A stretch of DNA of 43,914 bases, taken from a virus. Numbering within the stretch: the first letter of the stretch is position 1; every line of letters begins with the position of its first letter. Under the pieces are notes generated by a model. It made no database searches and was not told where the DNA came from. It worked only from the letters and a program-made list of their open reading frames with translations. Of this stretch, positions 840 through 43,914 are shown piece after piece. The translations under genes were made by a program, and so were the position numbers. The DNA lies in the IMG/VR virus record IMGVR_UViG_3300005529_000061, positions 1-43,914 of that record. One strand, given 5' to 3'.

Positions 840-1017
840 TCATTTGAAAAGCGAACTCTGGGAAATACAGGCACTTCTTTATTGGCTGCTTGCAACACAG
901 TTACATAACCTTTGGCTGCAAGTACCTCTTGTTGTTTGGGGCATTATTACACTTGCCGGATCAATCATTATAAAAGCAAAACAAATGGAAAGGGATAAAT
1001 ATGAAAAAAGGTCTTAA
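832..1017 (+). CDS. Small membrane protein, function unknown
   Basis: A 61-aa reading frame overlapping the end of the previous methyltransferase by 8 bp. It has a long hydrophobic stretch (about residues 14-48, with WGIITLAGSIIIKA at its end) and then a short basic tail. This looks like one or two membrane segments. There is no clear ribosome-binding site, and its end overlaps the start of the methyltransferase at 1001. It could be a small membrane anchor for the glycan enzymes or a spurious frame between genes. No family is recognised. Confidence 0.45.
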   Translation: MNNHLKSELWEIQALLYWLLATQLHNLWLQVPLVVWGIITLAGSIIIKAKQMERDKYEKRS

Positions 1018-1564: not shown

Positions 1565-2412
1565 AACTTTACGTAGTCATGCCGGTTATAAATTGTTTAG
1601 AGCTAACACAGGCAGCCATTGATTCTATTGGGTCTGCTTGTAATGTTATTCTCATTGATAACGCTTCAACAGATGGAACAGCACGCTGGGGTGAAGGACT
1701 TAACAAAGAGCAATTGACTGGTGGCAAAAAACTTATCTATGTCCGAAACAATGAACGCAAAGGCGTTGCTGCTTCTTGGAATCAGGGAATTAAACTTGCC
1801 TTTGAAGATCCAGACTGCGAGTACGTAGCAGTACTTAATAATGACATTATTCTTAATCCAAAAACACTTGATCATTTGATGAAGTTCATGGATAAGACTG
1901 GCTACTTAATGGTAACAGGCGACAATGTGCGGGATAGAATGGGCGTTGAGCTATTGCAGCAACTTGAATTACCAGAGCCTTATACAGACTTTGATACATG
2001 GAAGATTGAGGGTTGGCGAGCAGAAGGGCCAGACTTTTCCTGCTATATGATTTCACGGGAAACAATCAGGGTAATTGGCTGGTTTGATGAAAACTTCATG
2101 GGGGCTTACTGTGAGGATCAGGATTACCATGCACGGCTTGATAGAGCCAGAAGGCATATAGCACAGCACAATGACCACAATATCCCTGTAGAGCGTCTAC
2201 ACTTCAAGAGGCTATCTACAGCGCCATACTATCACTATGCCTCTCAAACACTGGTAAGGAACGTGGAGCTGCGTCATGATGTGGCAATAAACCATGGGCA
2301 TAACCAGTCTCTGTATATAAGAAAATGGGGTGGTGAGCATCCTTTTGTTATGGATGGCGGCGGTAATATGCAGCCATATGGAGATGCAACAAAGAGCTGG
2401 AGGGATTGGTGA
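1561..2412 (+). CDS. Glycosyltransferase family 2
   Basis: A 283-aa GT-A fold glycosyltransferase. The N-terminus has the GT2 pattern VVMPVINCLE followed by ILIDNASTDGT, then a VLNNDIIL segment that supplies the metal-binding DxD-like NND. An ED pair sits in GAYCEDQDYHARL, where the catalytic base of GT2 enzymes is expected. It is predicted to transfer a sugar from an NDP donor; donor and acceptor are unknown. No membrane segment is seen, so it is cytosolic. It overlaps the upstream methyltransferase by 4 bp and belongs to the same operon. Confidence 0.88.
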   Translation: MKLYVVMPVINCLELTQAAIDSIGSACNVILIDNASTDGTARWGEGLNKEQLTGGKKLIYVRNNERKGVAASWNQGIKLAFEDPDCEYVAVLNNDIILNPKTLDHLMKFMDKTGYLMVTGDNVRDRMGVELLQQLELPEPYTDFDTWKIEGWRAEGPDFSCYMISRETIRVIGWFDENFMGAYCEDQDYHARLDRARRHIAQHNDHNIPVERLHFKRLSTAPYYHYASQTLVRNVELRHDVAINHGHNQSLYIRKWGGEHPFVMDGGGNMQPYGDATKSWRDW

Positions 2413-2621
2413 TGCAACAAGTTATACAGTTTATAAGAAATTTCTGGCATTTAAAATCTGATTTGTGGAATGCATCAAAGATGCCCGGTCTTCATTGGCA
2501 TTTCTTTGGGTTTGATCAATATTGGGCTTACCAGATAGCTTGGGAAGAATTACATAAAGCCCATTTGAAATATATAGAAAGAATAGCAAAAAGAGTTAAA
2601 TCAATGGAAGAGAAAAATTAA
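2412..2621 (+). CDS. Hypothetical small protein rich in aromatic residues
   Basis: A 69-aa protein. The ATG at 2412 overlaps the stop of the preceding GT2 (TGATG) and is preferred to the slightly earlier TTG. It has many Trp, His and Phe residues in its first half (GLHWHFFGFDQYW) and a Lys/Glu-rich helix at the end. No family is recognised. It may be a small partner of the glycosyltransferases, as inferred only from position. Confidence 0.55.
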   Translation: MQQVIQFIRNFWHLKSDLWNASKMPGLHWHFFGFDQYWAYQIAWEELHKAHLKYIERIAKRVKSMEEKN

Positions 2622-2622
2622 T

Positions 2623-2994
2623 ATGAAAACAGCCTGTCAAACGTGTGTCATACATTTTGTAGATGAATTTGAAAAAACCTTAATACCGCCATGCAATTAT
2701 TGGGGCCAGACTGGCATGAGTACATTGCCAACAGAAGCAAAGAAGAAAGTATGGGATTGGCTTTTTTCAGCCCCGGCAGATGAGCTTAGCGGTTTTCATG
2801 TTGGTATGAGCATTACTTACTATGGCGTACCAATAGCAGATGAAGAGCGTTTTGAAAATGTCATACCGGGATATAGTTCCATGTCTGAAGAAGATAAAAA
2901 GCATTTTCAAAAGGAATTTTTCAGGAAAAGACAACAAGATCCAAATGCGCCTATTATTATTCCAGAGAAAAAAAAAGAAAGGATCATCAACTAA
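2623..2994 (+). CDS. Hypothetical protein
   Basis: A 123-aa protein starting one base after the stop of the upstream gene and ending directly before the ATG of the glycosyltransferase at 2995. It has an N-terminal CQTC pair (C5, C8) and a possible lone C23, too few for a convincing zinc site. The C-terminal third is highly charged (KKHFQKEFFRKRQQ). No family is recognised. Its position inside the glycan operon is the only functional hint. Confidence 0.6.
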   Translation: MKTACQTCVIHFVDEFEKTLIPPCNYWGQTGMSTLPTEAKKKVWDWLFSAPADELSGFHVGMSITYYGVPIADEERFENVIPGYSSMSEEDKKHFQKEFFRKRQQDPNAPIIIPEKKKERIIN

Positions 2995-4743
2995 ATGGAA
3001 GAAAATGTTGCTATCACTACTGATGAAACTAAAAAGGATAAGAAGATACGAATACTAGCCTTGTGCGATTCTCCAACGGCTGCAACCGGCTTTGCTCAAG
3101 TTTCACGCAATATTTTAACCGGGTTAGTAAAGACCGGCAAATATGACGTTGACGTTATTGGTATTAATTACTATGGAGACTACTACGATAGAGCCACGCA
3201 TCCCTACAATATCTATCCTGCAATGCCGCAGGGGTATGCTGATATGTATGGGAGAGGCAGATTGCTTAATGCTATTAACGGAAGTGAAGCAAAGTTTGGC
3301 TTGAAACAAGGCTGGGATATTGTCTTTACTATTCAAGACCCGTTTGTTATTGAAGGCTTGGGAGTTGACTATCCATTTGCCGAGCAGTTAAAAGTAGCCA
3401 AGGAATTGTGGAAGCGCTCTGTACCTCCGGAATATTGGTTTACATGGATTGGCTACTTTCCTGTAGATGCTCAAGTAAAAGAAAATTGGGTAACACGCTC
3501 AATAGCTCTGGCTGATTTTCCTGTAGCTTATTGTGAGTGGGGAAGAAACCAGATACTTAAATTTGATAAAGATCCATTCCAGACTACTTTTAATCTGGCA
3601 CTGCAAGAGGCAGGTCAGAAAAAGCGGGCAATCCTCAATACACCTTCTTTGACAACACGCATGAGTGTTATTCATCATGGCGTAGATGTAAATGTCTTTA
3701 AGCCTATTTCAGAAGAGGAAAAGAAGGAGTTTAGAAAAACCTTCTTTAATGGGGAAGTTTCCGAGCATACATACTTAGTGGTGAATGTCTCAAGGAATCA
3801 GCCTAGGAAGGATATATCCCGCACAATGGCTGCTTTTGCTGCTTTTAAGAAGAAAGTGCCTGATAGCCATTTGTACCTGCATTGTAAGGTACAAGACGCT
3901 GGAGGCAGTATCCATGAGATGGCACGCAACTTTGATCTGGTTCCGGGCAAAGACTATACAGTGCCTATGGACTTTAATGCCGGCATTGGTTATCCAGTTG
4001 ACTATGTGAATAAGATCTACAACATTGCGGATCTTTGTGTAACAACAACGCTTGGCGAAGGTTGGGGCTTTATTACTACAGAAGCCATGGCAACCAAGAC
4101 TCCTATTGCAGCGCCAAACATTACAAGCATTCTTGATATTTTTAATTCCTATGTTCCTCTTGATAAAGATTCAGGAGCCAATGGAACAGCGCCGGGAGAG
4201 CTGGATCTTAACGATTGGTTATTTAACAAAGGGGGCATTAATGAAGTACGTGGTATTCCGGTCAAAGCCGGGAGCAATAACAGTGAATGGATTTGCATGG
4301 GCATTGAAGACAATGAGCGAATCAGACCTTTGACAAATGTTGATGACATGGTAGAGAAAATGTTTTGGGCGTATACACATCCGGCTGAAGTAAAGAAGAT
4401 TGTTGATAGAGCATATGACTGGGTTGTTGGTTTGTCATGGGATAATATTGTTGAAGAATGGGATAGCCTTTTTACAAAAGCCTATGCTAAACTACAGGAA
4501 GAAAGAAAACTTGGAGAAGCAATTGATAAGACAGGAAGAAATGATCCATGCCCTTGTGGCAGTGGAGAGAAGTATAAAAAGTGTCATGGAAGTGCCGATA
4601 AAATGGCAAAATTCCAAGACTGGATAGTATCGGAGGGAGGTGAAATATTAGATGCCAAACAAAACGATTTACCCCAAGGAGGAGACAAAGATAGTGAAAA
4701 TCCCGAAGCAGGGATACAACGCAATATCCCAGATCAAGGATAA
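2995..4743 (+). CDS. GT4-type glycosyltransferase with C-terminal SEC-C zinc motif
   Basis: A 582-aa protein with a GT-B fold glycosyltransferase of the GT4/glycogen-synthase-like group. The N-terminal half has [17 protein letters not shown]. The donor domain has [11 protein letters not shown] and the diagnostic E-x7-E region [13 protein letters not shown] at about residues 352-364. Near residues 514-532 it carries [19 protein letters not shown], a textbook SEC-C zinc motif best known from SecA and added to many unrelated proteins. A GT4 enzyme with a SEC-C tail in a phage is unusual. The last 90 or so bases overlap the start of another frame at 4652 that has a better ribosome site, so the extreme C-terminus may be under dual constraint. 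Confidence 0.88.
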
Positions 4744-4838: not shown

Positions 4839-4973
4839 AAGCGGTGGGGGAGTGGTTGCAAATTAATGTACTCAATTGAGGCTAGCACTCCCCCACTCCC
4901 CCGGTAGGGGAGTGGTCTTTTTGAGGCTAAAAGAAGAAATTAGGGGACACATAGGAAAGTAGGGGAGTGGGGC
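4839..4973. repeat. G-rich non-coding repeat island A
   Basis: Non-coding stretch between the glycan operon and terS containing GGGGAGTGG-type units: AAGCGGTGGGGGAGTG at 4839-4854, continuing as GGTTGC to 4859; an inverted pair at 4887-4902; GGTAGGGGAGTGG at 4903-4915; and GTAGGGGAGTGGGGC at 4959-4973. TTGAGGCTA occurs at 4876-4884 and 4921-4929. Matching 16-, 15- and 13-bp words recur in the same order at 42462-42533. Because it lies directly upstream of terS it could include the packaging (pac or cos) recognition region; this is an inference. Confidence 0.75.
4893..4922 (+). terminator. Rho-independent terminator within the G-rich island
   Basis: CCACTCCCC (4893-4901) and GGGGAGTGG (4907-4915) form a perfect 9-bp stem with a 5-base loop, followed by TCTTTTT. 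This would end transcription of the glycan operon before terS. Confidence 0.7.
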
Positions 4974-5050: not shown

Positions 5051-5518
5051 ATGAATGTTTATCATAAAAAGGCAATAGAGTTAAGGTATAAGGGCTATAC
5101 CACAAAAGAGATTGAAAAGGCTCTTGGAGGGAAGCTTACTAAGGGTACGTTGGATAACTATTTTGCTTATGATGGAAAGCTTTATTTGCCCTTTTTGGAC
5201 TTTCAGGCTAGGCAGGATAAGTTTATAGAAGAGGATGTACGCAGTGAATTTAAATCGCAGGCAAAGTATGCGCCAAAGATAATGAATACCATTTTACAGC
5301 AGGCGCTGAAAGCACATGATTACATAGCAGCATTGCATATTGTTAAAGAGCAACTTGATAGAGCAGGACTTGTTACTATCAAAAAGTCAGAAGTAAATGT
5401 AAAGGATGATCAGCAAAAGGAGATGACATATGAGCTTTACCTTAAAGAGTGCGCCCGGTTGGGTATTGACCCAAGAAGCGGTCTTAGAATTTCAAAGACA
5501 CAGACTGACCCGAATTAA
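5051..5518 (+). CDS. terS: Small terminase subunit (TerS-like DNA recognition)
   Basis: A 155-aa protein immediately upstream of and overlapping the large terminase, the usual place for TerS. The N-terminal 40 residues (KKAIELRYKGYTTKEIEKAL) read as a helix-turn-helix, and the middle is helical and charged, as expected for the oligomerising domain. TerS binds the packaging site and hands DNA to TerL. No longer signature is recognised, so the call rests on size, HTH and position. The G-rich island directly upstream is a plausible target. Confidence 0.7.
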   Translation: MNVYHKKAIELRYKGYTTKEIEKALGGKLTKGTLDNYFAYDGKLYLPFLDFQARQDKFIEEDVRSEFKSQAKYAPKIMNTILQQALKAHDYIAALHIVKEQLDRAGLVTIKKSEVNVKDDQQKEMTYELYLKECARLGIDPRSGLRISKTQTDPN

Positions 5519-7043
5519 AGAATGTGAACATAATTTCAGGGAGTTTTGCCGCAATTACTTTCCCCAATACTTTTACGTTGATCCTTCCTCTATGCATGAG
5601 GAAATGTATATAACAATTCAGGAAGCAATAGAAAATGGTACTCCGGATAATATAGCCAATGCAGCCCCACGTGGAAATGCCAAGTCAACAATCATTTCTT
5701 TTGCCCTTCCCATTTGGTGTGCGGTATACAAGAAGAAGCATTATATAATTATTGTGTCTGACACAGCAGATCAGGCAAACGATTTCCTTTCAGCTATAAA
5801 AGGTGAATTTGAGGATAACGAGTTACTACAGGATGACTTTGGCAATGTAGAGGGTAATATCTGGACAAATTCAGACTTAATACTTAAAGGTGAAGAGGTG
5901 CGCATTCAAGCCCTTGGAGCAGGCAAGAAGATCCGTGGTAGACGTTACAAACAATGGAGGCCTGACCTTATCATCTGTGATGACCTAGAAAACGATGAGA
6001 ACGTGCGTAGTGCTGACCAACGTACCTATATGGCTGCTTGGCATGCAAAGGCCCTCTCAAAGGCAGGTGATGAGCGTACTGACAAGGTAGTAATAGGCAC
6101 AATCATGCACTACGATTCCCTGCTGGCAAAGCTCCTGAAGAATCCTGTATATCACTCCAAGAAGTATCAATCAGTTATTCAATGGTCAGCCTCTCCCCTT
6201 TGGGACGAATGGGAAAGGCTCATTGTTGATCTGGAGAATCCCAATAGGCTTGAGGATGGCAGGAAGTTCTTTGAGGAGCATAAAGCTGAAATGCTTGATG
6301 GTACAAAGGTTTTATGGGAAGCAAAGGAACCTTACTACAATTTGATGCTGCAACGTATTGCTGATGGCCCTGCTGCTTTTAGTTCTGAAAAACAGAATGA
6401 GCCGTTGTCAGATGATGAACGTAGATTTTTGCCGGAGTGGATACAGTACTATGATGACACGGATATTGTAGGGAAAGAGTTATACGTTGTTGGGTTTGTT
6501 GATCCTTCCATGGGAAAGCAAGGCGGAGATTATTCTGCTATAGTAACATTAGCCTCTGATTATAACTACCAGATCTATATCCTTGACGCAGATATTGCAA
6601 AGAGGCATCCGGATATTATAGCATTAGATGTAATAGCCAAACATAGGATTTATCACTACAAAGATTTTGGCGTTGAAATTAACCAGTTTCAGGAGTTCTT
6701 TAAAGACACCTTGCAAAAAAAACTAGAAGATGAGAAACTGGAGATACCTATCAAAGGAGTGAAAACTCATACAGACAAGATCTTAAGGATTCAGTCCTTG
6801 CAACCCGATATTAAGAATGGTAGAGTTAAATTTAGAAGGGATCAGCAAAAGCTGATAGAACAGCTAGTCAATTTTCCTTCTGCAGATCATGATGATGGGC
6901 CTGATGCATTGGAAGGAGCGATGACGCTATTGGGCAGGAGATCTGCTGTTGCTGATTATTATAAGGAGCAAACAAATGAAATTGGCAAAAACAATCCAAA
7001 CTCGTTTTTACAAAACCCCAATCTTCAGGGGTATATTAAATAA
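5430..7043 (+). CDS. terL: Large terminase subunit (TerL)
   Basis: A 537-aa packaging motor. The ATPase domain has a Walker A-like loop APRGNAKST near residues 79-87 and a Walker B DLIICDDLEND near 179-189. The nuclease domain has VGFVDPSMG (Asp near 358) and a late HDDGPDALEGA that supplies further metal-binding acids. It cuts concatemers and pumps DNA into the prohead through the portal. The ATG at 5430 overlaps terS by 89 bp; the next in-frame ATG would remove conserved N-terminal sequence. The length is typical for the family. Confidence 0.95.
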   Translation: MSFTLKSAPGWVLTQEAVLEFQRHRLTRIKECEHNFREFCRNYFPQYFYVDPSSMHEEMYITIQEAIENGTPDNIANAAPRGNAKSTIISFALPIWCAVYKKKHYIIIVSDTADQANDFLSAIKGEFEDNELLQDDFGNVEGNIWTNSDLILKGEEVRIQALGAGKKIRGRRYKQWRPDLIICDDLENDENVRSADQRTYMAAWHAKALSKAGDERTDKVVIGTIMHYDSLLAKLLKNPVYHSKKYQSVIQWSASPLWDEWERLIVDLENPNRLEDGRKFFEEHKAEMLDGTKVLWEAKEPYYNLMLQRIADGPAAFSSEKQNEPLSDDERRFLPEWIQYYDDTDIVGKELYVVGFVDPSMGKQGGDYSAIVTLASDYNYQIYILDADIAKRHPDIIALDVIAKHRIYHYKDFGVEINQFQEFFKDTLQKKLEDEKLEIPIKGVKTHTDKILRIQSLQPDIKNGRVKFRRDQQKLIEQLVNFPSADHDDGPDALEGAMTLLGRRSAVADYYKEQTNEIGKNNPNSFLQNPNLQGYIK

Positions 7044-8799
7044 CTACGTGAAGTCCACAAACACAAAGCTTGTGCCGGCAAAGAATCTTCAGGAATTAAT
7101 CAAGATAAATGATGAGAAATTACAACTTGAGAAATCTATCCCAGCCCTTGTGCAAGAAGAAATCCAAAAGGTAGAAACATTAAATCGCAATGAAGCAATG
7201 CGTTATCGCTTGCCTTACCGGATCAATGATACAAAAGATCCTGACCGAAAGCCCGGAGCTGATGTACCCTTTTCCTACTTAAGACGCATTGCAGTTCTTT
7301 ATCCAATTGCCAGAGCATGTATCAATAGACGTGTAAGGCAGATTACACAATTAGAGTGGGATATTACTACCATTGATGAAGTTAAAGATGAAAAGGGATA
7401 TGCGGGCCAAATTAAAGCAGTAAAGGATTTCCTTAAGCAACCAATGGGACATAAGACAAGAATGCGGGAGATGTTGACGCTCATGGTAGATGATGTGTTG
7501 ACAATTGATGCGGTTTGTTTTGAGATGCAAAGAACAAGAGGCGGAGACTTTTTAAATCTTGTTCCGGTTGATCCAACGACTATTGCTTTACGAGTAACAG
7601 ATACAGGAGCAACACCTGAACCCCCAGACCCAGCATACGTGCAGATCATCCAAGGGCAGCCAGTCGCACAGTTTAGCACTGATGAAATGCTTTATGAGGT
7701 AATGAATCCACGATCTTACTCCCCTTATGGCCTTTCTCCTTTGGAGTCCTTGATATTACAAGCAGAGTCAGCATTGCGGGGTACTTTATATAATTTGTCC
7801 TATTTTAGAGAGAACAATATTCCTGAAGGCTTCTTAACGCTTCCTGAAGACGTAGCACAAACAAAGACGCTTGTTGAGGAATGGCAGATGTGGTTTGATG
7901 CATTGGTCGCTGGAGATCCTAGGATGACCCATAGGCTTAAGATCTTGCCTGGTGGCTCTGAATATACTCCAACCAAAAAGCCAGAGGATATGGCCTTTGA
8001 GAAGTTTGAGCTTTGGATGCTGCAGCAAACATGCGCTATGTTTGAAGTGCAACCACAGGATATTGGCATTACCATGAATGTGAATAAAGCAACAGCAGGT
8101 AGTCAACAAGATATTGGAAAAGAGCGTGGGCTACTCCCCTTGGGTAATTTCATTAAAGAGATATTTGATGATCTTATTCAAATGGAATTAGGCTTAACAA
8201 ATCTGCAGTTTATCTGGAGGAATATTAATCCTACAGATCATAAAGAAGAAATGGAGATTGCAGAAAAAGAAATTAGCCTTGGTGCTTTGGGCGTAGATGA
8301 ATGGCGAGCAGAAAATGGAAGAGAACCATTAGGCCTTAAGCCCTACATCCAAACTTCTTCTGGGCCAATATTGGTAGAAGATTTTGTTGCCGGCAAGGTT
8401 GGCCCTGCTGCCACACAAGCAACAGCCGCAGCTATGGCAGAGAATAAGACCTCCCCAACAAATGGCAATAATGAGGAGAACAAGAATAATCCCCCCAAAG
8501 GTGGGGAGATGACACCTGAACAAAAGCAAAAGCTCATGGATCAGGATATACGGCGCTGGAAGAAATGTGTGTATAGCGATTTGGAGCGAGGGGTGAAAAT
8601 CAGAACCAAATTTGATTCAGACTATATAGATGGGCAAACAAATGAGGAGATTGCAGACGCACTCCAGAAAGTTCAATCAAGGCTTCAAGCAAAGCTTTTG
8701 TTTGATCAATACTTAGATCCTGAAATAAAAGCCTCTATGACTTTGCTCAAATTTGCTTCCGAGCTAAGGAGAATAGAGCATGATGTTGCATCTGCATAG
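6976..8799 (+). CDS. Portal protein
   Basis: A 607-aa portal of the HK97/SPP1-like superfamily. The ATG at 6976 is chosen because AAGGAG sits 8 bp upstream. Visible features are SYLRRIAVLYPIARACI near the start, LVPVDPTTIALRV, YEVMNPRSYSPYGLSPLE and the following helix with ALRGTLYNLSYF, all typical of the portal wing and clip. The C-terminal third is Asn/Lys-rich and then helical. The dodecameric portal forms the unique vertex for TerL docking and tail attachment. It overlaps TerL by 68 bp. Confidence 0.9.
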   Translation: MKLAKTIQTRFYKTPIFRGILNNYVKSTNTKLVPAKNLQELIKINDEKLQLEKSIPALVQEEIQKVETLNRNEAMRYRLPYRINDTKDPDRKPGADVPFSYLRRIAVLYPIARACINRRVRQITQLEWDITTIDEVKDEKGYAGQIKAVKDFLKQPMGHKTRMREMLTLMVDDVLTIDAVCFEMQRTRGGDFLNLVPVDPTTIALRVTDTGATPEPPDPAYVQIIQGQPVAQFSTDEMLYEVMNPRSYSPYGLSPLESLILQAESALRGTLYNLSYFRENNIPEGFLTLPEDVAQTKTLVEEWQMWFDALVAGDPRMTHRLKILPGGSEYTPTKKPEDMAFEKFELWMLQQTCAMFEVQPQDIGITMNVNKATAGSQQDIGKERGLLPLGNFIKEIFDDLIQMELGLTNLQFIWRNINPTDHKEEMEIAEKEISLGALGVDEWRAENGREPLGLKPYIQTSSGPILVEDFVAGKVGPAATQATAAAMAENKTSPTNGNNEENKNNPPKGGEMTPEQKQKLMDQDIRRWKKCVYSDLERGVKIRTKFDSDYIDGQTNEEIADALQKVQSRLQAKLLFDQYLDPEIKASMTLLKFASELRRIEHDVASA

Positions 8800-34371: not shown

Positions 34372-36006
34372 ATGAACTATAAACTTTTAACATTTAAGAA
34401 AGAAGCGAGAGAAAAGTTAGCGGCAGGCGCTGACAAACTGGCACAGGCAGTAGTTTCTACTCTTGGGCCAAGAAGCAGGAATGTAGCTTTAAATAGATCC
34501 TATCCAGCTCCTTTAATTCTTCATGATGGTGTATCCATAGCAAAAGAAATTCAATTGCGAGATCCATTTGAGGATATGGGAGCAGTTCTTTTACGGGAAG
34601 CAGCTTCTAAAACGAATGATCTTGCCGGTGATGGCACTACAACGGCAACTTTACTTGGTAACACCTTAATACAAGAGGGGTTTAAACTAACCGAGGGAGG
34701 AGTGGTTGAGGGTGTTATCACTGGCAAGATCAATCCAATGAAGCTTCGTGAGGATCTGATGGCCTATGCTGACATTATTATTAAGAAGCTTGAGGAAAAA
34801 ACAATCCCCGTTAAAAAGAAAGAGGAATATCAACAGGTAGCCACAATCTCTTCTGCATCCCCAGAAATAGGAAAACTTGTAGCAGATGCTCTTGAAAAGG
34901 TTGGTAAAGAGGGCGTTATCATGATTGAGGATAGTAATAGCTTTGAGTCAGCCCTTGAGTTTCAGGAAGGCATGGAGTTTGAAAATGGCTTCCTTTCCCC
35001 TTACTTTGCTACAGATCCCGATAAAATGATTGCTGAATATAAAGATGGCTATGTTCTTATGACTGATAAAAAGATTTCAGATCCTATGGAAATAGTCAAT
35101 ATTGCAGATCAGGTTATAAAAGATGCCAACAAACCTCTTCTTATTATTGCTGATGATGTAGTAGGAGCAGCGTTGCAATCATTGGTATTAACAAAGCTTA
35201 GGATCAATGCCGGACTTGTGGCAGTCATTGCCCCAGAGTTTGGAGAGCGTAGAAAAGAAATGCTTGAGGATATTGCTGTTTTGACAGGAGGCAATGTTAT
35301 TGCCAAGGATCTGGATAAGAAATTGCCGGATGTCAAATTGGGAGAGCTTGGTAGATTTAGAAGTATCAAGGTTTCTCAAACACATACAAGCATTACGCCA
35401 CTCAATCCCGATGCAGAGGAAATTACTGAAAGAGTCAATGCAATCAAAACACAAATTGATGCAGAGGAAAATGCATTTAAGAAAGAACGCCTTGAATATC
35501 GGTTGAGTAAACTTTCCCAAGGAGTGGCAATTATTACTGTTGGTGGTGGTTCTGCTTCTGAAATAAAAGAAAAGCGGGAAAGAGTTATAGATGCGGTCAA
35601 TGCTACCAAGGCAGCTATGGCAGATGGCATTGTAGCAGGTGGTGGGATTGCATTATTGGAAATTGCAGAGGAATTAAGTAGAGATGCCAAGAAAGATGAT
35701 TTAGCCTTTAAGCTTGTGTATCAGGCGATTACAGCGCCTTTCAGAACTATTATTGAAAATGCCGGGGAAAATCCTGATAGTGTTTTAAAGCATATGGCAG
35801 CGTTGGAAGGCACAAATGTAGAGAATCGTGGCTATGACATTGTTGGCAGAAAAGTAGGGGATATGATCAAAATGGGTATTACTGATCCGGTAAAAGTAAC
35901 CAAACTTGCAATACGACATTCATTTTCTGTTGCGTCAATGATGCTTACAACGGATACATTGGTAACAGATCCTTATGAAGACGATAACAAAAAACAAACT
36001 GCATAA
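34372..36006 (+). CDS. groEL: Chaperonin GroEL (phage-encoded)
   Basis: A full-length 544-aa group I chaperonin. The ATP site is intact: Asp52 in HDGVSIAKEI, GDGTTTA at 86-92, and Asp407 in VIDAVNATKAA, equivalent to the catalytic Asp398 of E. coli; VAGGG at 421-425 is also kept. Apical hydrophobic helices that bind substrate and GroES are retained (around 208-212, 240-250, 263-275). The Gly-Gly-Met tail is absent; the protein ends in a charged DPYEDDNKKQTA. No groES gene is found. A few phage GroELs are known to work without GroES. It probably folds phage proteins such as the capsid or glycan enzymes. Confidence 0.95.
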   Translation: MNYKLLTFKKEAREKLAAGADKLAQAVVSTLGPRSRNVALNRSYPAPLILHDGVSIAKEIQLRDPFEDMGAVLLREAASKTNDLAGDGTTTATLLGNTLIQEGFKLTEGGVVEGVITGKINPMKLREDLMAYADIIIKKLEEKTIPVKKKEEYQQVATISSASPEIGKLVADALEKVGKEGVIMIEDSNSFESALEFQEGMEFENGFLSPYFATDPDKMIAEYKDGYVLMTDKKISDPMEIVNIADQVIKDANKPLLIIADDVVGAALQSLVLTKLRINAGLVAVIAPEFGERRKEMLEDIAVLTGGNVIAKDLDKKLPDVKLGELGRFRSIKVSQTHTSITPLNPDAEEITERVNAIKTQIDAEENAFKKERLEYRLSKLSQGVAIITVGGGSASEIKEKRERVIDAVNATKAAMADGIVAGGGIALLEIAEELSRDAKKDDLAFKLVYQAITAPFRTIIENAGENPDSVLKHMAALEGTNVENRGYDIVGRKVGDMIKMGITDPVKVTKLAIRHSFSVASMMLTTDTLVTDPYEDDNKKQTA

Positions 36007-37019: not shown

Positions 37020-37850
37020 ATGAAAATAACTGTCGCAGTATTAGTATTAAATCAGCAACAGATAACCCAACAGTTTTTGGATCAGATCCGAAAAACTGAA
37101 GGGGAGGCAAAGCTACCTCTTTTAATTGTTGATAATGGCAGTACGCCCCCGGTGAGGGATTGGCTTATTGGACTACGTGATAATGACTTAGTGGTGCGAA
37201 ATGAAGAAAATGTAGGGGTAATGCCCGGACTCAATCAGGCATGGCGTGTCCTTAAAGATGTTTCTGACTATATTTTCTTTCCCCATAATGACCTCATGAT
37301 CTATGAACAAGGCTGGGATGACAAGCTTGTACGGGTACTCTCTGGCCTTCCAGAATGCGGTGTGGCGGGCTTTTATGGTGCTAAGGCACTAGGAGTGCCG
37401 AATATATACCAAACCCCGTACCAGATGCAGCAATTAGTTAGAATGGGCAATGTATCAGGCTGCCACAGAATGAATGCTGCTATCCATGGCTTTATGCCTC
37501 CAAGAGGAGAAACAGAAGAAGTAGCAGTTATGGATGGTTTTTCTCTTATTGTGCGTACTGAACTCCTCAACAAGCTTGATGGCTTTGATAGATCATATCC
37601 CCCACATCACAATTATGACAATGACATTTCCCTTGAGTCAATTGATAAAGGATACAAAAATTATGTTATTGCCATGGACGCTGATCACTTGGGCGGGCGT
37701 ACTGATGTAGGGGAAGACTGGAATAAAAACTTTGGCAAAACAAAAGCAGAAATTCATAGAGATGCACATCCGGTACTTTACAATAAATGGAGTCCAACAA
37801 ATGTGCAGAATGGCAAGCATAAAATTTCTTTGCCAGTGAGGGTAGCATGA
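37020..37850 (+). CDS. Glycosyltransferase family 2
   Basis: A 276-aa GT-A enzyme. VAVLVLNQQQITQQFLDQI and LLIVDNGSTPPVRDWL form the nucleotide-binding start; FFPHNDLMIY supplies the HND metal-binding triad in place of DxD; NYDNDISLESIDKGYK is the acceptor-side acidic motif. Donor and acceptor are unknown. It opens the glycan cluster, and its stop overlaps the methyltransferase ATG at 37847. Confidence 0.88.
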   Translation: MKITVAVLVLNQQQITQQFLDQIRKTEGEAKLPLLIVDNGSTPPVRDWLIGLRDNDLVVRNEENVGVMPGLNQAWRVLKDVSDYIFFPHNDLMIYEQGWDDKLVRVLSGLPECGVAGFYGAKALGVPNIYQTPYQMQQLVRMGNVSGCHRMNAAIHGFMPPRGETEEVAVMDGFSLIVRTELLNKLDGFDRSYPPHHNYDNDISLESIDKGYKNYVIAMDADHLGGRTDVGEDWNKNFGKTKAEIHRDAHPVLYNKWSPTNVQNGKHKISLPVRVA

Positions 37851-38431
37851 AAACAATTGAACAACTTTGGAAATTATTGGAAAATGTAGAACTTGTACAA
37901 GTGCGTCCTGTTGAAATGGAAGCCATGTATAAACATTGCTTTGAATTTAAAGGGCCTACAATCATTGAAATTGGATCTGCTCACGGGGCATCTTCCATTA
38001 TCTTTGGAGAGGCAGTAAAAGAACTGGGTGGCATATTGTATTGTATTGATCATTTCCCAGAAGATTATTACAACCAACCAAAATTTGGCAAATATGCAAA
38101 AGAAAGATTCCTTAAAAATATGCGTCCCTACAAAGAACATTATATGCATATTGATTTTCCTTCTGACAAAGCATTGCCGGCAATTCAGAATGCATGGGGA
38201 GATGTACAGGAAGTAAATTGTGATGTACTATTTATTGATGGCAACCATGATTACGAAGCAGTCAAAAAGGATATTGAATTGTATATGCCTACTTTAAGAA
38301 AAGGCGGGTACGTTGGATTCCATGATTATTACAATGTAGCGTTTGGAGTACAGAAAGCAGTTGATGAAAACAGAGCCGCATTAGAAGGGCCAATTAAATA
38401 TTGGGATTTAGCAGTATTTAAAAAACTATGA
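37847..38431 (+). CDS. SAM-dependent methyltransferase, Methyltransf_24-like
   Basis: A 194-aa protein with TIIEIGSAHGASSIIFGEAV as motif I, YCIDHFPEDYY, and VLFIDGNHDYEAVKKDIELY, the Methyltransf_24 signature; GGYVGFHDYY follows. It is a clear paralogue of the gene that spans the window ends (43507/1-246). Both neighbours are coupled by ATGA overlaps. Sugar O-methylation is inferred from context. Confidence 0.88.
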   Translation: MKTIEQLWKLLENVELVQVRPVEMEAMYKHCFEFKGPTIIEIGSAHGASSIIFGEAVKELGGILYCIDHFPEDYYNQPKFGKYAKERFLKNMRPYKEHYMHIDFPSDKALPAIQNAWGDVQEVNCDVLFIDGNHDYEAVKKDIELYMPTLRKGGYVGFHDYYNVAFGVQKAVDENRAALEGPIKYWDLAVFKKL

Positions 38432-39144
38432 AACTTTTAGCATTTACCGCCAGCTTTTATGACAAGGATTATGACTCAAAGCTTGAGAAGCTTACCTATA
38501 CGTGTGAGGCTTTGGATATTGATTTAGTAACCTATGGGCATCATGAATTTTTTTCTTTCTATGATAGTAAGATTGTTAAAATGGGCATGCTCTTAAATAA
38601 CTTCAAAGATAAATACACCCATTGCCTTTATACTGATACCGCAGACTCCCTCTTTCTTACAGGAATGGATGAAATTATTACCAAATATCTTAAGTTCAAT
38701 AGTAAATTGGTTGTATCCGGAGAGAGGAATTGCCATCCTTTTGGACATTTAGCAGATAAATTTCCACAGGCTCCTACTTCTTACCGCTTTATGAACCCCG
38801 GCAATTTCATTGGAGAGATAGAATATATGCTCTTTGTTATTAATCAGCTTAAGGCTTTCAGACATTTGCAAACTGATGATCAAGGCCATTGGGCAGAAGC
38901 ATATTTGGCTGGCAGGATTCCAGAGTTGACCATTGATCATCAATGTGAGTTGTTTCAAACAATGTCAGATAGAGAATTGGGAATTGATGTAGAGATTTTA
39001 CCAAACGGGAGAGTAAGAAATATTGAGACAAAAAGCTATCCTTGTATTATCCATTTTAATGGGCCAAAGGGAGAAGGTTCCCACAACCAGAAGATGATGA
39101 ATGAAGTCTTTGAGAATTTTAGGGGGGAATATGCAGTTATTTAA
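38428..39144 (+). CDS. PLOD/procollagen-type glycosyltransferase
   Basis: A 238-aa protein whose pattern matches the glycosyltransferase domain of lysyl hydroxylases (PLOD/LH3): LYTDTADSLFL with the DxxD-like metal site, VVSGERNCHPFG, YRFMNPGNFIGEI, TDDQGHWAEAYL, HQCELFQTM and a final CIIHFNGPKGEGS. In animals these transfer glucose to galactosyl-hydroxylysine; bacterial and viral members use unknown acceptors. It is coupled to both neighbours. A collagen-like acceptor was not seen; the Gly-rich protein at 26487 lacks G-X-Y repeats. Confidence 0.8.
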   Translation: MKLLAFTASFYDKDYDSKLEKLTYTCEALDIDLVTYGHHEFFSFYDSKIVKMGMLLNNFKDKYTHCLYTDTADSLFLTGMDEIITKYLKFNSKLVVSGERNCHPFGHLADKFPQAPTSYRFMNPGNFIGEIEYMLFVINQLKAFRHLQTDDQGHWAEAYLAGRIPELTIDHQCELFQTMSDRELGIDVEILPNGRVRNIETKSYPCIIHFNGPKGEGSHNQKMMNEVFENFRGEYAVI

Positions 39145-39499
39145 AGCAGAATATTATACTGATCATAGAGGCGATATTATCAATGCTATGCCTTTTAAAG
39201 CCAATATCCAGAATGTAATGTACATTACAGGAAAAGAAGGTGCAGTCAGAGGCAACCACGTTCACAAAAAGGACATGCATTATTGTTTGGTTATTGAGGG
39301 TACAATCCTTTATGAATGGGTAGAAAAGGGAGAAGAAAAAGTTAATTCAATTCCTTTGGAAGCCGGAGATATTGTACTATCAGAAACAGGAGAGAAGCAC
39401 AGATTTGTATTCAAAACAGATGGGGTGTTTTTGGCACTGGCAACAGAGCCAAGAACGCATGAAAGCTATGAATCAGATACTATACGACAAGATTTCTAA
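39131..39499 (+). CDS. Sugar cupin isomerase/epimerase (FdtA/WxcM-like)
   Basis: A 122-aa cupin from ATG 39131 with AGGGGGG upstream. GAVRGNHVHKKDMHYCLVIEG is the conserved His-rich first cupin motif of dTDP-sugar 3,4-ketoisomerases and related 3,5-epimerases; LEAGDIVLSETGEKHRFVF is the second. It likely acts on a nucleotide-keto-sugar and fits the C-methyltransferase and epimerase next to it. The exact reaction is not certain. Confidence 0.78.
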   Translation: MQLFKAEYYTDHRGDIINAMPFKANIQNVMYITGKEGAVRGNHVHKKDMHYCLVIEGTILYEWVEKGEEKVNSIPLEAGDIVLSETGEKHRFVFKTDGVFLALATEPRTHESYESDTIRQDF

Positions 39500-40694
39500 A
39501 AGAACCAATTGTGCAGCTTGCAAAGGGAAAAACTTTGGCAGATGGCTTGATCTTGGCATGCAGCCATTAGCAAACGCATTGGTAAAAGACATCAATAATA
39601 TTGAAGAGGATTTATTTCCACTTAAGGTTATTTACTGCAAGGATTGTGAGCTTGTGCAATTGGAATATATAGTTAAGCCTGAAGTCCTTTTTGGCAATTA
39701 CCTTTATTACTCTTCAACCTCCGAAGCATTCAGAAAGCATTTTGAGCTATTGGCACAGGAACAATTTAATCTTGATTTAATTAAAAAGGGAGAATTGGTA
39801 GTGGATATTGGAAGCAATGATGGTATTTTGCTTGCCCCTTTTAAAAGGCTTGGAGCAACGATACTAGGTATAGAGCCGGCAGCAGCCATTGCAAACAAGG
39901 CAGCTAAAGATGGCATTGAAACGTGGGCAGAATACTTTACTCCCGATACTGCAAAAAGAATTGTTAAGGGATTTGGTAAAGCAAAGCTGGTAACAATGAC
40001 CAATGTGTTTGCCCATGTGCCTGATCTGGATCAGATTGTAGAGGGTGTTAAAGAGCTTTTGGCTCCTGATGGACGCTTTATGGTTGAGGTAGCATATTTG
40101 CCAGAGATGCTTAAAAAGGGAACCTTTGACCTTATTTATCATGAGCATATGTATTACTGGCATTTATTTCCTATGTGGAAGTTCTTTTATAAGCATAATA
40201 TGAAAATTGAAAATGTTGAACAAACTTCAGTACATGGGGGATCAATACGAGTAACTGTTGTAAATGAGGAACCGGAGGGATGGGCAATGCTTAAAGATGC
40301 TGATTTAACAAAAGATAGATTGTTTAGGGAATTTCCTAAAAAGGTTATTGATAACAGAAATGAAATTGTAAGCTTGATTACAAAATTTAAGAAGCAAAAG
40401 AAAAGAATAATTGGCTATGGAGCGCCGGCCAAGATGTCTACCATGACCAATTACTTTGATTTGGGGCCAGAACAAATTGACTATATTATTGATGATGCTC
40501 CTGCAAAGCAAGGACTGTATTCGCCACGAAAGCATATAAAGATTGTCCCTCCCTATACAGATTTGAGTAAATGTACGCATGATTACATATTTCTTTTTGC
40601 ATGGAATTTCAAAGATAGTCTGATGTCTTTAATTAAAGCCAGAGGATATAAAGGCAAGTTTATTATTCCATTTCCAAAGGTAACAATATTATGA
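39468..40694 (+). CDS. NDP-sugar C-methyltransferase
   Basis: A 408-aa protein (an ATG at 39459 would add three residues). Three parts are visible: an N-terminal zinc module (CAACKGK, GMQPLANALV, CKDCELVQL); a SAM domain (ELVVDIGSNDGILL, LVTMTNVFAHVPDL); and the Methyltransf_14-like C-terminal domain with YHEHMYYWHLFPMW and IIGYGAPAKMSTMTNYF. This is the architecture of TylC3/NovU-type sugar C-methyltransferases, which add a methyl to C3 or C5 of NDP-keto-sugars. It suggests the phage helps make a branched-chain deoxysugar. Confidence 0.88.
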   Translation: MNQILYDKISKRTNCAACKGKNFGRWLDLGMQPLANALVKDINNIEEDLFPLKVIYCKDCELVQLEYIVKPEVLFGNYLYYSSTSEAFRKHFELLAQEQFNLDLIKKGELVVDIGSNDGILLAPFKRLGATILGIEPAAAIANKAAKDGIETWAEYFTPDTAKRIVKGFGKAKLVTMTNVFAHVPDLDQIVEGVKELLAPDGRFMVEVAYLPEMLKKGTFDLIYHEHMYYWHLFPMWKFFYKHNMKIENVEQTSVHGGSIRVTVVNEEPEGWAMLKDADLTKDRLFREFPKKVIDNRNEIVSLITKFKKQKKRIIGYGAPAKMSTMTNYFDLGPEQIDYIIDDAPAKQGLYSPRKHIKIVPPYTDLSKCTHDYIFLFAWNFKDSLMSLIKARGYKGKFIIPFPKVTIL

Positions 40695-41758
40695 AGCTAA
40701 TTGAAGAAGATTTGCAGTCAATAATTAAACAGGTAGGCACTCCCATATTTGATTTTGAGGGGAGAGAGATTCTTATCTCCGGAGCATGTGGTTTTCTAGG
40801 CTCTTGGTATATAGCTCTTTTTCAGGAATTAAATAAGTTTTTTAAGCATCCATGCAAAGTGTATGCAGTGGATAGTGGTATTGCTACTGATGAAAATAAC
40901 CATATTGTGAAAGTTACTGATCCAAATATTCTCTTTAAACAGGCTGATATATCTACCATGGAAATTGATGGCACTGTGGACTATATTATTCATGCAGCAG
41001 GTATAGCTTCCCCCATTTTCTATAGGAAATTCCCGGTTGAAACAATTGATGGTATGGTGCTTGGGCTTTCTAATCTGATGAAGTTTGCTGTTAAAAACCC
41101 GGTAAAGGGATTCTTTGTCTTTTCCTCTTCTGAAATGTACGGCAATCCACATCCAGAAGCAGTACCCACGCCAGAGACTTACTACGGCAATGTATCAGCC
41201 ATAGGCCCTAGGAGCTGCTACGATGAGAGTAAGCGCATGGAAGAGGCAATGTGTGTGGCTTACCACAGAATCCATAATGTGCCTGTCAAATGGGTCAGGC
41301 CCTTTAATGTCTATGGCCCCGGCATGCGGGTGGTAGATGACAGGGTAGTGCCTAAGTTTACCTTCCAAATGCTCAAGAATGAGGATATTACTGTCCATGT
41401 GCCGGGACTCCAGACCAGAACCTTCTGTTATGTTACAGATGCTATGGTGGGCTTCCTGAAGGCTATGCTTATAGGCAAAAATGGGGAAGTCTACAATATA
41501 GGCAGGCAGGATGACGAAATTAGTATTTACGAGCTGGCAACACGAATGCAAAAGCTCTTTCCCCAAAGCAAGAGTAACATTAATACTATTGAGATGCCTA
41601 CCGAATATCCGCAGGATCAGGCCCAAAGACGATGCCCCGATATTACAAAGGCACGGGAGCAATTGCTCTACAGCCCAAGAGTATCATTGGATGAAGGTTT
41701 GGGCAGGACATGGGAATGGGCAGAGGAGGCCCTAAAAGCATATGGAAAAAAGAGTTGA
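40691..41758 (+). CDS. NAD-dependent sugar epimerase/dehydratase (SDR)
   Basis: A 355-aa extended SDR. GACGFLG at 31-37 binds NAD, HAAGIASP follows, SSSEMYG near 145-151 gives the catalytic Ser, and Tyr177-x3-Lys181 (CYDESKRMEE) completes the site. RPFNVYGPGMR and the C-terminal RQDDEISIYELATRM fit UDP-glucuronate decarboxylase / NDP-sugar dehydratase relatives. It is coupled at both ends (ATGA at 40691; 17-bp overlap with the next gene). Confidence 0.9.
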   Translation: MKLIEEDLQSIIKQVGTPIFDFEGREILISGACGFLGSWYIALFQELNKFFKHPCKVYAVDSGIATDENNHIVKVTDPNILFKQADISTMEIDGTVDYIIHAAGIASPIFYRKFPVETIDGMVLGLSNLMKFAVKNPVKGFFVFSSSEMYGNPHPEAVPTPETYYGNVSAIGPRSCYDESKRMEEAMCVAYHRIHNVPVKWVRPFNVYGPGMRVVDDRVVPKFTFQMLKNEDITVHVPGLQTRTFCYVTDAMVGFLKAMLIGKNGEVYNIGRQDDEISIYELATRMQKLFPQSKSNINTIEMPTEYPQDQAQRRCPDITKAREQLLYSPRVSLDEGLGRTWEWAEEALKAYGKKS

Positions 41759-42455
41759 CATTATTATCCCGGTACATAACAGGTGGGAACATACCAAGCA
41801 AACGCTGGATTCTTTATTTGAAAATACTGATGAAGGAATGTTTGAGCTTTATGTTATTGACGATAGGTCAGATCCAGAAACTGAAAATGGTTTGAAGGCT
41901 TATAAGAAAATTAGCATTTTAAAAAGAAATGATATAGCAATTGGGCCGGCAGCATCTCGTAATGAAATGTGTGAGCATATTACTAAAAGCGGTGGCCGGA
42001 AAGAATTTCTCTATCATTCAGATAATGATGTCTTTTTTAAGCGAGGTTGGTTAGGCGCTTTGCTTGCTACTTTGGATATGTTTGAAGAAGATGGCTTAAA
42101 GCTTTTGGGTGGTGGTTGCCATCCATACTTACAGAATAATGGGATCTTTTCAAGACCAGAAATTCAGTATCCATATATTGTTGGTTTAAAGGATGCAGTT
42201 TCCGGATATAGTCAGTTAATGCGCTGGGAAACATGGGATAAATACGGGCCATTTTCAGATGCCAACCGCAATGAGGAAATCAAGATAATGGGGTCTGAAG
42301 ACTGGGCATTTTGTCAGAAAATCATCAAGGATGGATACAAGGTTGGTAGCATAGAGCCGGAGCTGGTTATTGCCACTGGCAAGACCAATACCTATGGTAA
42401 GTTGGCGACTGGTTCCGAGACATTTAAAGAGGTAGAAGGGGTGGTAGTCAAATGA
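41742..42455 (+). CDS. Glycosyltransferase family 2
   Basis: A 237-aa GT-A enzyme: DIIIPVHNRWEHTKQTLDSL, LYVIDDRSDPET, then FLYHSDNDVFFKRGW with DND as metal-binding triad, and EEIKIMGSEDWAFCQKIIKD with the ED pair. The acceptor is unknown. It is the last gene before the second G-rich repeat island. Confidence 0.88.
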   Translation: MEKRVDIIIPVHNRWEHTKQTLDSLFENTDEGMFELYVIDDRSDPETENGLKAYKKISILKRNDIAIGPAASRNEMCEHITKSGGRKEFLYHSDNDVFFKRGWLGALLATLDMFEEDGLKLLGGGCHPYLQNNGIFSRPEIQYPYIVGLKDAVSGYSQLMRWETWDKYGPFSDANRNEEIKIMGSEDWAFCQKIIKDGYKVGSIEPELVIATGKTNTYGKLATGSETFKEVEGVVVK

Positions 42456-42461
42456 GCCAAA

Positions 42462-42533
42462 AAGCGGTGGGGGAGTGCTATTTTAGCCTCATGGGGGAGT
42501 GGTTGCTAAGTGGGGGAGAGGGTAGGGGAGTGG
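42462..42533. repeat. G-rich non-coding repeat island B
   Basis: Holds AAGCGGTGGGGGAGTG (42462-42477), TAGCCTCA (42484-42491), TGGGGGAGTGGTTGC (42492-42506) and TGGGGGAGAGGGTAGGGGAGTGG split here as 42511-42533. The first, third and last words recur in the same order in island A (4839-4859, 4903-4915), with the GGCTCA-type word inverted. Several G-runs with short spacers could form a G-quadruplex. There is no hairpin-plus-T terminator. Confidence 0.8.
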
Positions 42534-42543
42534 AGGCATTTTT

Positions 42544-42906
42544 ATGAATATTTCAATAGATTGGAACGGGTGTTACCCGGAGCATAAAGAGTACTTTGAC
42601 GCTATGGCTTTGGCTATGCAAAAGGCCGGCCATAGGGTGGGAATTATCACAGGAGAACGGGAAAAAGACCCATACAATAAGACCGACAAAACCAAGGAAA
42701 TTTTGGGATATTTAGGGTTTAAACCGGACTTCTTGGTTCTTTGGGGAGAGTACGAAACAATAGCCAATGGCAATATGTGGAAGGCCCAAAAGCTCATTGA
42801 TAATCAGATAGCAATGCACTTTGATGATGATGCAACCGAAATGAAAAAGTATACTGATATTTGGATAGTAAAGGTTTTAAATAGAGCAGAGAAAGGAAAA
42901 TTTTAA
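42544..42906 (+). CDS. HAD-like protein
   Basis: A 120-aa protein with HAD-type elements: SIDWNG at the start (the second acid is Asn, so motif I is altered), VGIITGE in the motif II position, KAQKLIDNQIAMHFDDDATE with the acidic motif IV. It could be a degenerate or specialised phosphatase of the small HAD group. It starts one base after island B and ends sharing a base with the next ATG. Confidence 0.6.
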   Translation: MNISIDWNGCYPEHKEYFDAMALAMQKAGHRVGIITGEREKDPYNKTDKTKEILGYLGFKPDFLVLWGEYETIANGNMWKAQKLIDNQIAMHFDDDATEMKKYTDIWIVKVLNRAEKGKF

Positions 42907-43505
42907 TGCATGGCATAGTACATGATTTTGTTGTTTTAAATACTGTAAAAGATGGGCATACGTATCCTACCGGCAATGGCGGGGGAGCAAGAGCCAATGA
43001 GCTTTTGCCAGATTATCCAACTTTAAAAGAACAGCCAACTTTTAGTAGAATTTTAGATATAGGGTCATTGGATATTAATGGCAGCATGCAGGGATATAAC
43101 TTTGCAGGAGGAGGCCCAAACTGGAAAGACTTGGTTAAATGTATGCAGTATATTGGCATTGATCTTATTGAGGGCCGAAATGTTGATGTGGTTATGGATG
43201 CCCACGATTTGAACTATAGCGATGGCAGCTTTGACTTAGTGCTTTGCTTATCTATGTTAGAGCATGATTCAGAACCCATGGCTACGATTATAGAGGCTTT
43301 CCGTGTCTTAAAGAAAGGACAACCTTTTATTTTGACTACTGTAAGTGCAGAGCATGAAGAGCATAAGCATTTAGGCGGTGGCGATACTGAAACATATAAT
43401 CATTTGACTTTTGAGCAGGTATTGAAGATACTTAAAATGGTAGGCTTTAAGTCAATTGGATACCGAAATCCGGAGACAGAATTGCTGTTTTACTGCGTTA
43501 AATAA
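42906..43505 (+). CDS. Class I SAM-dependent methyltransferase
   Basis: A 199-aa methyltransferase. ILDIGSLDINGS is motif I, YIGIDLIEGRNVDVVMDAHD is motif II, and GSFDLVLCLSMLEHD with AFRVLKKGQPFILTTVSA follows, the Methyltransf_11 pattern. AAAGGA lies upstream of the ATG. The acceptor is unknown; its context is the glycan cluster. Confidence 0.85.
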   Translation: MHGIVHDFVVLNTVKDGHTYPTGNGGGARANELLPDYPTLKEQPTFSRILDIGSLDINGSMQGYNFAGGGPNWKDLVKCMQYIGIDLIEGRNVDVVMDAHDLNYSDGSFDLVLCLSMLEHDSEPMATIIEAFRVLKKGQPFILTTVSAEHEEHKHLGGGDTETYNHLTFEQVLKILKMVGFKSIGYRNPETELLFYCVK

Positions 43506-43506
43506 T

Positions 43507-43914
43507 ATGAAAAACATAGATGAAATTTATCAGATAGTTGAGGAAAGTAGCCATGAGACTGCTTTTAACAGGGGAGAATGTGAGGCTCTTTTTAATAAGC
43601 TCCTTGATTTACCCAAAGGAGCCAAGGTTGTTGAGATTGGCGTGGAATATGGCAGATCTACAAGTGTCATTGCAGAGGTAGGCAAAGAGCGTGATTTTAA
43701 CTTTACAGCCATTGATAATTGGTGTCAGGATAATGGGGCGGAAGCAAAAGCCCATGTTCTTTCTCAAATAGAGAAGCATCAATGGAAGATAAAGCTTATG
43801 ACTATGGATTCTAATTTAGCTTCAAAGATTTATGAAGGTAAGATTGATCTGATTCATATTGATGGAGATCATGTCTACGAAGCTGTTAAGTCTGATATTG
43901 AGCATTGGCTTCCA
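43507..43914 (+). CDS. SAM-dependent methyltransferase, Methyltransf_24-like (N-terminal part; continues at base 1)
   Basis: The first 106 unique codons of the protein that continues at base 1 (total 187 aa); bases 43825-43914 are the repeated copy of 1-90. Motif I is VVEIGVEYGRSTSVIAE at about residues 41-57, then FTAIDNWCQDNG. It begins 1 bp after the upstream methyltransferase. The gene's intactness across the join is strong evidence that the ends belong together. Confidence 0.88.
   Translation, partial: MKNIDEIYQIVEESSHETAFNRGECEALFNKLLDLPKGAKVVEIGVEYGRSTSVIAEVGKERDFNFTAIDNWCQDNGAEAKAHVLSQIEKHQWKIKLMTMDSNLASKIYEGKIDLIHIDGDHVYEAVKSDIEHWLP
43825..43914. repeat. Right copy of 90-bp terminal direct repeat
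   Basis: Identical to bases 1-90. Removing one copy leaves a 43,824-bp circle with an uninterrupted methyltransferase gene. Confidence 0.95.

Follow-up and report, generated by a model that had tools for sequence, protein, structure and literature searches.

A candidate virion sugar-coat locus in a 44-kb phage: constant glycosyltransferases beside the portal gene frame exchanged sugar-making genes

IMG/VR virus record IMGVR_UViG_3300005529_000061, analysed here over its full 43,914 nucleotides (the window), contains a 17-gene glycan locus that ends directly upstream of the packaging genes. We propose that in this uncultivated phage it is a sugar-coat locus, by which virion proteins would receive a methylated sugar specific to the lineage and probably carrying a 3-C-methyl branch. 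We put the probability of this reading at about 55%. The two ends of the window share an exact 90-bp repeat (positions 43825-43914 copy 1-90); the record is therefore a circularly closed genome of 43,824 bp, and the locus crosses its junction, running on the plus strand from 37020 to 4743 and taking up 11,548 bp, or 26.4% of the genome. The intergenic gaps range from -17 to +1 nt with a single exception of 88 nt, as computed with approximate starts for the cupin and C-methyltransferase genes, which were later refined to 39131 and 39468. A chance origin of such an array is untenable, since all gaps but one are at most 1 nt and the gene order is kept in a related viral contig, G001.

A sequence-only reading of the window had described a coupled gene series of about 11.5 kb, a quarter of the genome, with five glycosyltransferases (GTs) of two folds plus a PLOD type, a short-chain dehydrogenase/reductase (SDR), a sugar-type cupin and a sugar C-methyltransferase. 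All of this holds: Pfam assigns three GT2 domains, one GT_PLOD and one Glycos_transf_1, and Pfam and PDB matches cover the other enzymes. Its six S-adenosylmethionine (SAM) methyltransferases are also present (37847, 39468, 42906, 43507-246, 243 and 1001), with the correction that the C-methyltransferase, which had been counted separately, is one of the six. The HAD-like label of one protein is not supported: the product of 42544 has no Pfam hit, one orthologue has Glu in place of the Asp taken as the nucleophile, and the structure model of the protein has no PDB match at E<=1e-3. Three further small proteins are encoded within the array, at 832, 2412 and 2623. The genes of the locus are as follows.

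37020..37850, plus strand: GT2a, a GT-A fold glycosyltransferase that opens the locus (Pfam Glyco_tranf_2_5 1.2e-10 and GT2; HND at the DxD position)
37847..38431, plus strand: SAM methyltransferase of the MT24 / CmcI-rhamnosyl O-methyltransferase type (Pfam Methyltransf_24 1.1e-22, RMNT_CmcI 1.2e-6)
38428..39144, plus strand: PLOD-type glycosyltransferase, a stand-alone GT domain (Pfam GT_PLOD 1.9e-26)
39131..39499, plus strand: cupin, QdtA/FdtA-like sugar ketoisomerase or epimerase with an HVH motif (Pfam Cupin_2 1.1e-7; 52% identical in G001)
39468..40694, plus strand: nucleoside diphosphate (NDP)-sugar 3-C-methyltransferase of the TylC3/TcaB9 family (Pfam Methyltransf_13/23/14, 1.4e-33; PDB 4rv9 7.7e-75; start fixed by comparison with G001)
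40691..41758, plus strand: extended SDR, UDP-glucuronate decarboxylase-like (PDB UXS1 3.4e-44; SSEMYG, GPRSCYDESKR and QTRTF motifs)
41742..42455, plus strand: GT2 glycosyltransferase with a DND motif (Pfam GT2 9.4e-14; 61% identical in G004 and G001)
42544..42906, plus strand: conserved 120-aa protein (orthologues in G001 and G004, 47-53% identical)
42906..43505, plus strand: SAM methyltransferase (MT11; Pfam 6.4e-10)
43507..43824 and 1..246, plus strand: SAM methyltransferase (MT24/TylF-like), split by the junction (Pfam Methyltransf_24 1.9e-20; 53.5% identical in G001)
243..839, plus strand: SAM methyltransferase (MT11/23; Pfam 4.3e-16)
832..1017, plus strand: small transmembrane (TM) protein (from hydropathy; no orthologue seen in G001 or G004)
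1001..1564, plus strand: SAM methyltransferase (MT11; Pfam 3.2e-8; 58.8% identical in G001)
1561..2412, plus strand: GT2b, a GT2 glycosyltransferase with an NND motif, the last GT2 ahead of GT4 (Pfam GT2 2.9e-20)
2412..2621, plus strand: small protein (no Pfam hit)
2623..2994, plus strand: 123-aa protein rich in Cys and His, encoded between GT2b and GT4 and conserved (34% identical orthologues in G001 and G004; no Pfam hit; structure model of too low confidence for use)
2995..4743, plus strand: GT4, a GT-B glycosyltransferase (Pfam Glycos_transf_1 and SEC-C; EX7E at E355/E363; phrog_2170 7.2e-32)

How fixed is this arrangement? No close nucleotide relatives were found among phage isolates, and viral contigs were scanned with the terminase large subunit (TerL), GT4, GT2a and GT2b as queries. 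The GT4 scan gave 18 hits. Nine of them, at 34% identity or more, make up a comparison set of ten contigs together with the window; the other nine, at 22-29% identity, had no portal near GT4 with the queries used and were treated as a separate, distant set. Throughout the comparison set of ten contigs, the portal gene comes 0.7-2.4 kb after GT4, a linkage that is not a selection effect because G001, G004 and the others were recovered by GT4 alone. GT2b precedes GT4 in the window and seven other contigs (8/10), and GT2a opens the locus in 7/10; among the contigs without GT2a or GT2b, at least two (G003, L049) are cut by the contig end, most relatives being fragments.

Between these GTs, the sugar-making genes differ from contig to contig, and the combination of cupin, C-methyltransferase and SDR is that of the window and G001. 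The order in G001 (33 kb) is nearly identical to that of the window, except that it lacks the PLOD GT and has an extra FkbM methyltransferase and an HNH-like gene. In G004 (15.5 kb), the GTs including the PLOD GT are kept, and a B12-binding radical SAM protein replaces the cupin, the C-methyltransferase and the SDR. G002 (60.5 kb) has a portal that is 38% identical and a TerL without a match to that of the window; here, GT2a is followed by an SDR, NeuB, a TIM-barrel protein, a cytidylyltransferase, a methyltransferase, WbqC, PIG-L, a DegT aminotransferase and an acetyltransferase, a set that looks nonulosonic-acid-like, and then by GT2b, GT4, TerS, TerL and portal. G007 reads GroEL, an SPFH-like gene, NTP_transferase, GT2a, DegT aminotransferase, GT2, SDR, GT2b, GT4, terminase and portal, whereas the G006 locus holds GTs, methyltransferases and an RGP (UDP-arabinose mutase-like) protein, with a C-methyltransferase, a UXS-like SDR and many more GTs outside it. 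Judged by gene content, this comparison shows that the outer GTs (GT2a, GT2b and GT4) stay constant and that phage lineages swap the sugar-making genes lying in between. It is tempting to go further, although we offer this only as a tentative idea with the odds somewhat against it: the GT2a ... GT2b-GT4 frame by the portal and its exchangeable nucleotide-sugar cassette could be the phage counterpart of bacterial capsule (K) loci, giving lineage-specific virion coats (C-methyl pentose or hexose, nonulosonic acid, amino sugar) and thereby phage serotypes.

The constancy of the frame is matched at the level of sequence. Between the window and G001, the GTs are conserved as strongly as terminase and portal, with amino-acid identities of 70.7% for GT2a, 63.5% for GT4, 62.2% for GT2b and 60.9% for the GT2 at 41742, against 68.1% for TerL and 58.4% for the portal protein; the sugar-making enzymes are less conserved (C-methyltransferase 45.8%, cupin 52.1%, SDR 57.3%). 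In the same comparison, second-codon-position differences amount to 0.24-0.54 of third-position differences. Inactivated genes, which the sequence-only reading had named as part of a refutation, were not found in the nearest relative, G001: no frame is broken there, and the genes are conserved like packaging genes. That reading had also called a pathway of this size striking for a 44-kb phage, a fair remark, although similar loci recur in other phages. In L049, in-frame intein-like inserts, recognised in the sequence by a Cys start and an HN-Cys or CGN end, are found in GT4 and portal of the same contig (703-3348 and 5519-8386); inteins usually sit in conserved, needed proteins. A further open reading frame (L059, G006 record 21760-20362) resembles an intein fused to a glycosyltransferase-like C-terminal part, with an HN-S junction.

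Among the sugar-making enzymes, the C-methyltransferase has full-length PDB matches to D-mycarose 3-C-methyltransferase (7.7e-75) and TcaB9 (1.6e-64), and its Zn-binding N-domain, SAM domain and C-terminal Methyltransf_14 domain are all above the Pfam cut-off. A His (in NVFAHV) and a Tyr-x-Glu-His (YHEH) align to TcaB9, whose catalytic residues we take to be H181 and Y222/E224/H225, and both are also kept in G001. For the SDR, UXS is the closest among characterised SDRs (UXS1 3.4e-44), the next enzymes following at 5e-31 or weaker; it shares the SxEVYG and GPRxCYDExKR motifs with UXS, and its G001 orthologue aligns to UXS1 along its length. It reached no NCBIfam equivalog cut-off, so that decarboxylation of UDP-glucuronate is a putative reaction for it. 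A UDP-glucose dehydrogenase-like gene lies directly upstream of GroEL in G001, and its enzyme would supply the substrate for a UXS-like SDR. The cupin has the ketoisomerase-type HxH motif, its family similarity being weak (FdtA 9.1e-4, below cut-off; QdtA E 0.07). These three enzymes give good support to the proposal of the sequence-only reading, in which the genes serve to make and attach a methylated sugar that may be branched. We infer that the product would be a UDP-linked (or other NDP-linked) sugar with a 3-C-methyl group, O-methylated later. Cellular donors of the SDR and the C-methyltransferase did not emerge, as the genome_contigs scans returned no relative with patterns so short and strict that this is no evidence of absence. 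A viral-contig scan with the C-methyltransferase alone confirmed none, although members of the family later turned up in G001, G006 and the Synechococcus phage DSL-LC02.

By sequence, the five GTs keep their catalytic signatures (HND at 37020, DND at 41742, NND at 1561, EX7E at 2995 and the PLOD GT domain at 38428), and all five are predicted to be soluble. The single TM segment in the cluster belongs to a 61-aa protein, and neither a flippase nor a polymerase nor a membrane-anchored GT was found there by Pfam and TM prediction. GtrB-like PHROG matches of the GT2 domains are partial and weak only. GT2a is 65-71% identical in G004/G001 and 33% in G002, and GT4 has a C-terminal SEC-C zinc motif. 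The PLOD GT, with an orthologue in G004 and none in G001, lacks a hydroxylase domain; its best PDB match is R699 (9dyt, 1.3e-15), a mimivirus protein, followed by LH3 (1.1e-14). A role as hydroxylysine modifier was rejected: although the GT domain is shared with the collagen glycosyltransferase PLOD/LH3, the window has neither a lysyl hydroxylase partner (PF13640) nor a collagen-like acceptor, no run of at least six G-X-Y occurring in the window proteins listed.

How could these enzymes work together? In the proposed pathway, a host nucleotide sugar would be oxidised or decarboxylated by the UDP-glucuronate-decarboxylase-like SDR to a 4-keto intermediate, which the cupin would isomerise or epimerise before a methyl branch is introduced by the C-methyltransferase, C3 being its most likely position. 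While new virions assemble in the cytoplasm, the five soluble GTs may then build a short glycan on structural proteins of the capsid or tail, with the O-methyltransferases capping glycan hydroxyls. A swap of the cassette between the constant GTs would alter the coat from lineage to lineage.

The main rival is that the locus remodels the envelope glycan of the infected host, the NDP-sugar being fed into lipopolysaccharide (LPS), capsule or cell-wall precursors to block superinfection by other phages or by the phage's own progeny. Phage glycosyltransferases are commonly read as host-surface modifiers, for example in pelagimyophages (PMC7029224), phage-encoded enzymes altering the capsular nonulosonic acid of the host are known in Acinetobacter (PMC12053666), and genes for methyltransferases and C-methyl sugars are a usual feature of surface-polysaccharide synthesis. 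Yet the cluster has no membrane-anchored GT, flippase or polymerase, no integrase was found that would indicate a lysogen with a long-term surface benefit, and the locus adjoins portal and head genes in ten divergent contigs. Virion-protein glycosylation fits better because of the soluble cytoplasmic GTs, the adjacency to head genes, the head-gene-like conservation and the lack of export machinery, and we regard host-surface remodelling as unlikely, if worth taking seriously. In mycobacteriophages, phage-encoded GTs are reported to glycosylate capsid and tail-tube proteins (Freeman 2023, as cited in PMC12363180 and PMC11256854). Several points weigh against a virion sugar coat all the same. 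The virion acceptor is putative, and lipid-linked or LPS precursors at the cytoplasmic membrane can be substrates of soluble GTs as well. Between the array and the terminase genes stands a terminator-like hairpin, so that co-transcription with the head genes is hypothetical. There was no mycobacteriophage among the matches to GT2a, GT2b or GT4. Position, solubility and comparison favour the virion over the host envelope as the probable acceptor.

Could the sugars be meant for something else entirely? They could be placed on phage DNA bases as a hypermodification against restriction, and virus-encoded GTs have been reported to place diverse glycans on DNA (Pyle 2024, as cited in PMC12619734); G007 even has C5 DNA methylase genes, one of them within its locus. 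However, a thymidylate-synthase-type hydroxymethylase (PF00303) was found neither in the window nor in five relatives, the window has no C5 methylase and no 2-oxoglutarate-Fe oxygenase of PF13640, a search for Tet/JBP (PF12851) gave no hit, though its positive control was likewise silent, and the GT families (GT2, GT4, PLOD) are not those of classical DNA GTs, which makes DNA glycosylation very improbable. Somewhat less remote, and still improbable, is the idea that the product of the locus is a free small glycoside or an altered metabolite of the infected host, or that its genes came along as passenger DNA from a surface-polysaccharide cluster of a host. In its enzymes the locus recalls pathways for antibiotics or surface sugars, and HNH-type genes, identified by eye, lie in or beside it in relatives. 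Passenger DNA would be expected to decay, and is disfavoured because no frame is damaged, conservation is like that of the packaging genes, and G001 has kept the gene order.

We would like to place the locus among known systems. The mycobacteriophages Che8, Corndog and Myrna have phage-encoded GTs with a capsid or tail acceptor, as proposed here (Freeman 2023, via PMC12363180 and PMC11256854); those papers name one or two GTs, whereas the window has five GTs, six methyltransferases and its own sugar-making genes, and its acceptor is putative. Nucleotide-sugar and GT genes are known in phages TJE1, S-CBS4, DSL-LC02 and phAPEC8. The isolate Tetrasphaera phage TJE1 has a nucleotidyltransferase, an epimerase, a methyltransferase and a homologous GT4 (35%) just before terminase/portal, but a single GT annotated in the segment and no C-methyltransferase; in S-CBS4, a GT4, a GT and a methyltransferase lie between portal and capsid genes. 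DSL-LC02 carries a GMD / C-methyltransferase / Fcl / GT run, with the same-family C-methyltransferase beside SDRs, many GTs and an FkbM methyltransferase. Unlike the window, it is a 168-kb phage with GDP-sugar-type SDRs, and its run is not beside packaging genes in the stretch read. Giant viruses (chloroviruses and mimiviruses) also have their own GTs and nucleotide-sugar enzymes (PMC9614988, PMC5408694), and the best PDB matches are R699 for the PLOD GT and GT B736L for the GT4 profile (7e-7, weak homology), but these are eukaryotic viruses of several hundred kb. Bacterial O-antigen and K loci likewise have constant genes framing a swapped sugar-synthesis middle; the window locus differs in having no Wzx, Wzy or ABC export and in lying in a virus, beside head genes. 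In contrast to the gtr O-antigen conversion cluster (GtrA flippase, GtrB, membrane GtrC), it encodes no multi-TM protein. In Aphanizomenon/Planktothrix 'phage' records, UXS lies among Wzc/Wzy genes, and these records were left aside as precedents for phages. Three 'phage' records of 42,586 bp with different named hosts (L043, ON073792; PP438404; PP438434) had the same best match and show Wzc, Wzy and polysaccharide-export genes where read; they are possibly mis-assigned bacterial DNA.

In the open-licence papers searched, we found no account of phages as small as 44 kb in which sugar cassettes are exchanged within a fixed set of GTs next to the portal, although a prior description is possible. 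If virions do carry self-made, swappable sugars, glycosylation would be a selectable trait of the phage surface, much as serotypes are in bacteria, and would bear on adsorption, decoy binding, predation and immune recognition. The loci offer a concrete set for asking what makes it worthwhile for a small phage to devote a quarter of its genome to glycan chemistry, and the conserved GTs, GT4 above all, can be used as search handles.

The surroundings of the locus in the window comprise the following features.

4893..4915, plus strand: strong terminator-like hairpin between the glycan locus and the terminase genes (9-bp stem, 7 GC pairs, T tail)
5430..7043, plus strand: TerL, a neighbour of the locus (phrog_38 1.1e-118)
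6973..8799, plus strand: portal protein, a neighbour of the locus in 10/10 contigs (phrog_2662 4e-49)
34372..36006, plus strand: GroEL-type chaperonin (Pfam 1.5e-56; phrog_5725 7e-135; same gene upstream of the glycan locus in G001, G004 and G007)

The window GroEL is 46% identical to the G001 copy and may help fold virion proteins or glycan enzymes. The top promoter-like match of the region (11/12) lies before its gene, at 34325-34354; because promoter-like sites in the region are overall no commoner than in shuffles, this is no more than a hint that the GroEL gene belongs to one unit with the glycan genes. Although the genome of 44 kb is complete, the scan of its proteins recognised no polymerase, primase, helicase or integrase and picked out only a 62-aa helix-turn-helix/excisionase-like protein at 31466-31654; replication may depend on the host or on genes that escaped recognition. 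In the relatives, some neighbouring genes were identified by eye. An S-adenosylmethionine synthetase-like gene just upstream of the G002 glycan locus (L036, 2605-3603) could be a source of the methyl donor. G003 encodes two adjacent minus-strand sulfatase/alkaline-phosphatase-like proteins (L037, 9003-11040), with a PAPS-reductase-like protein nearby, downstream of its head genes.

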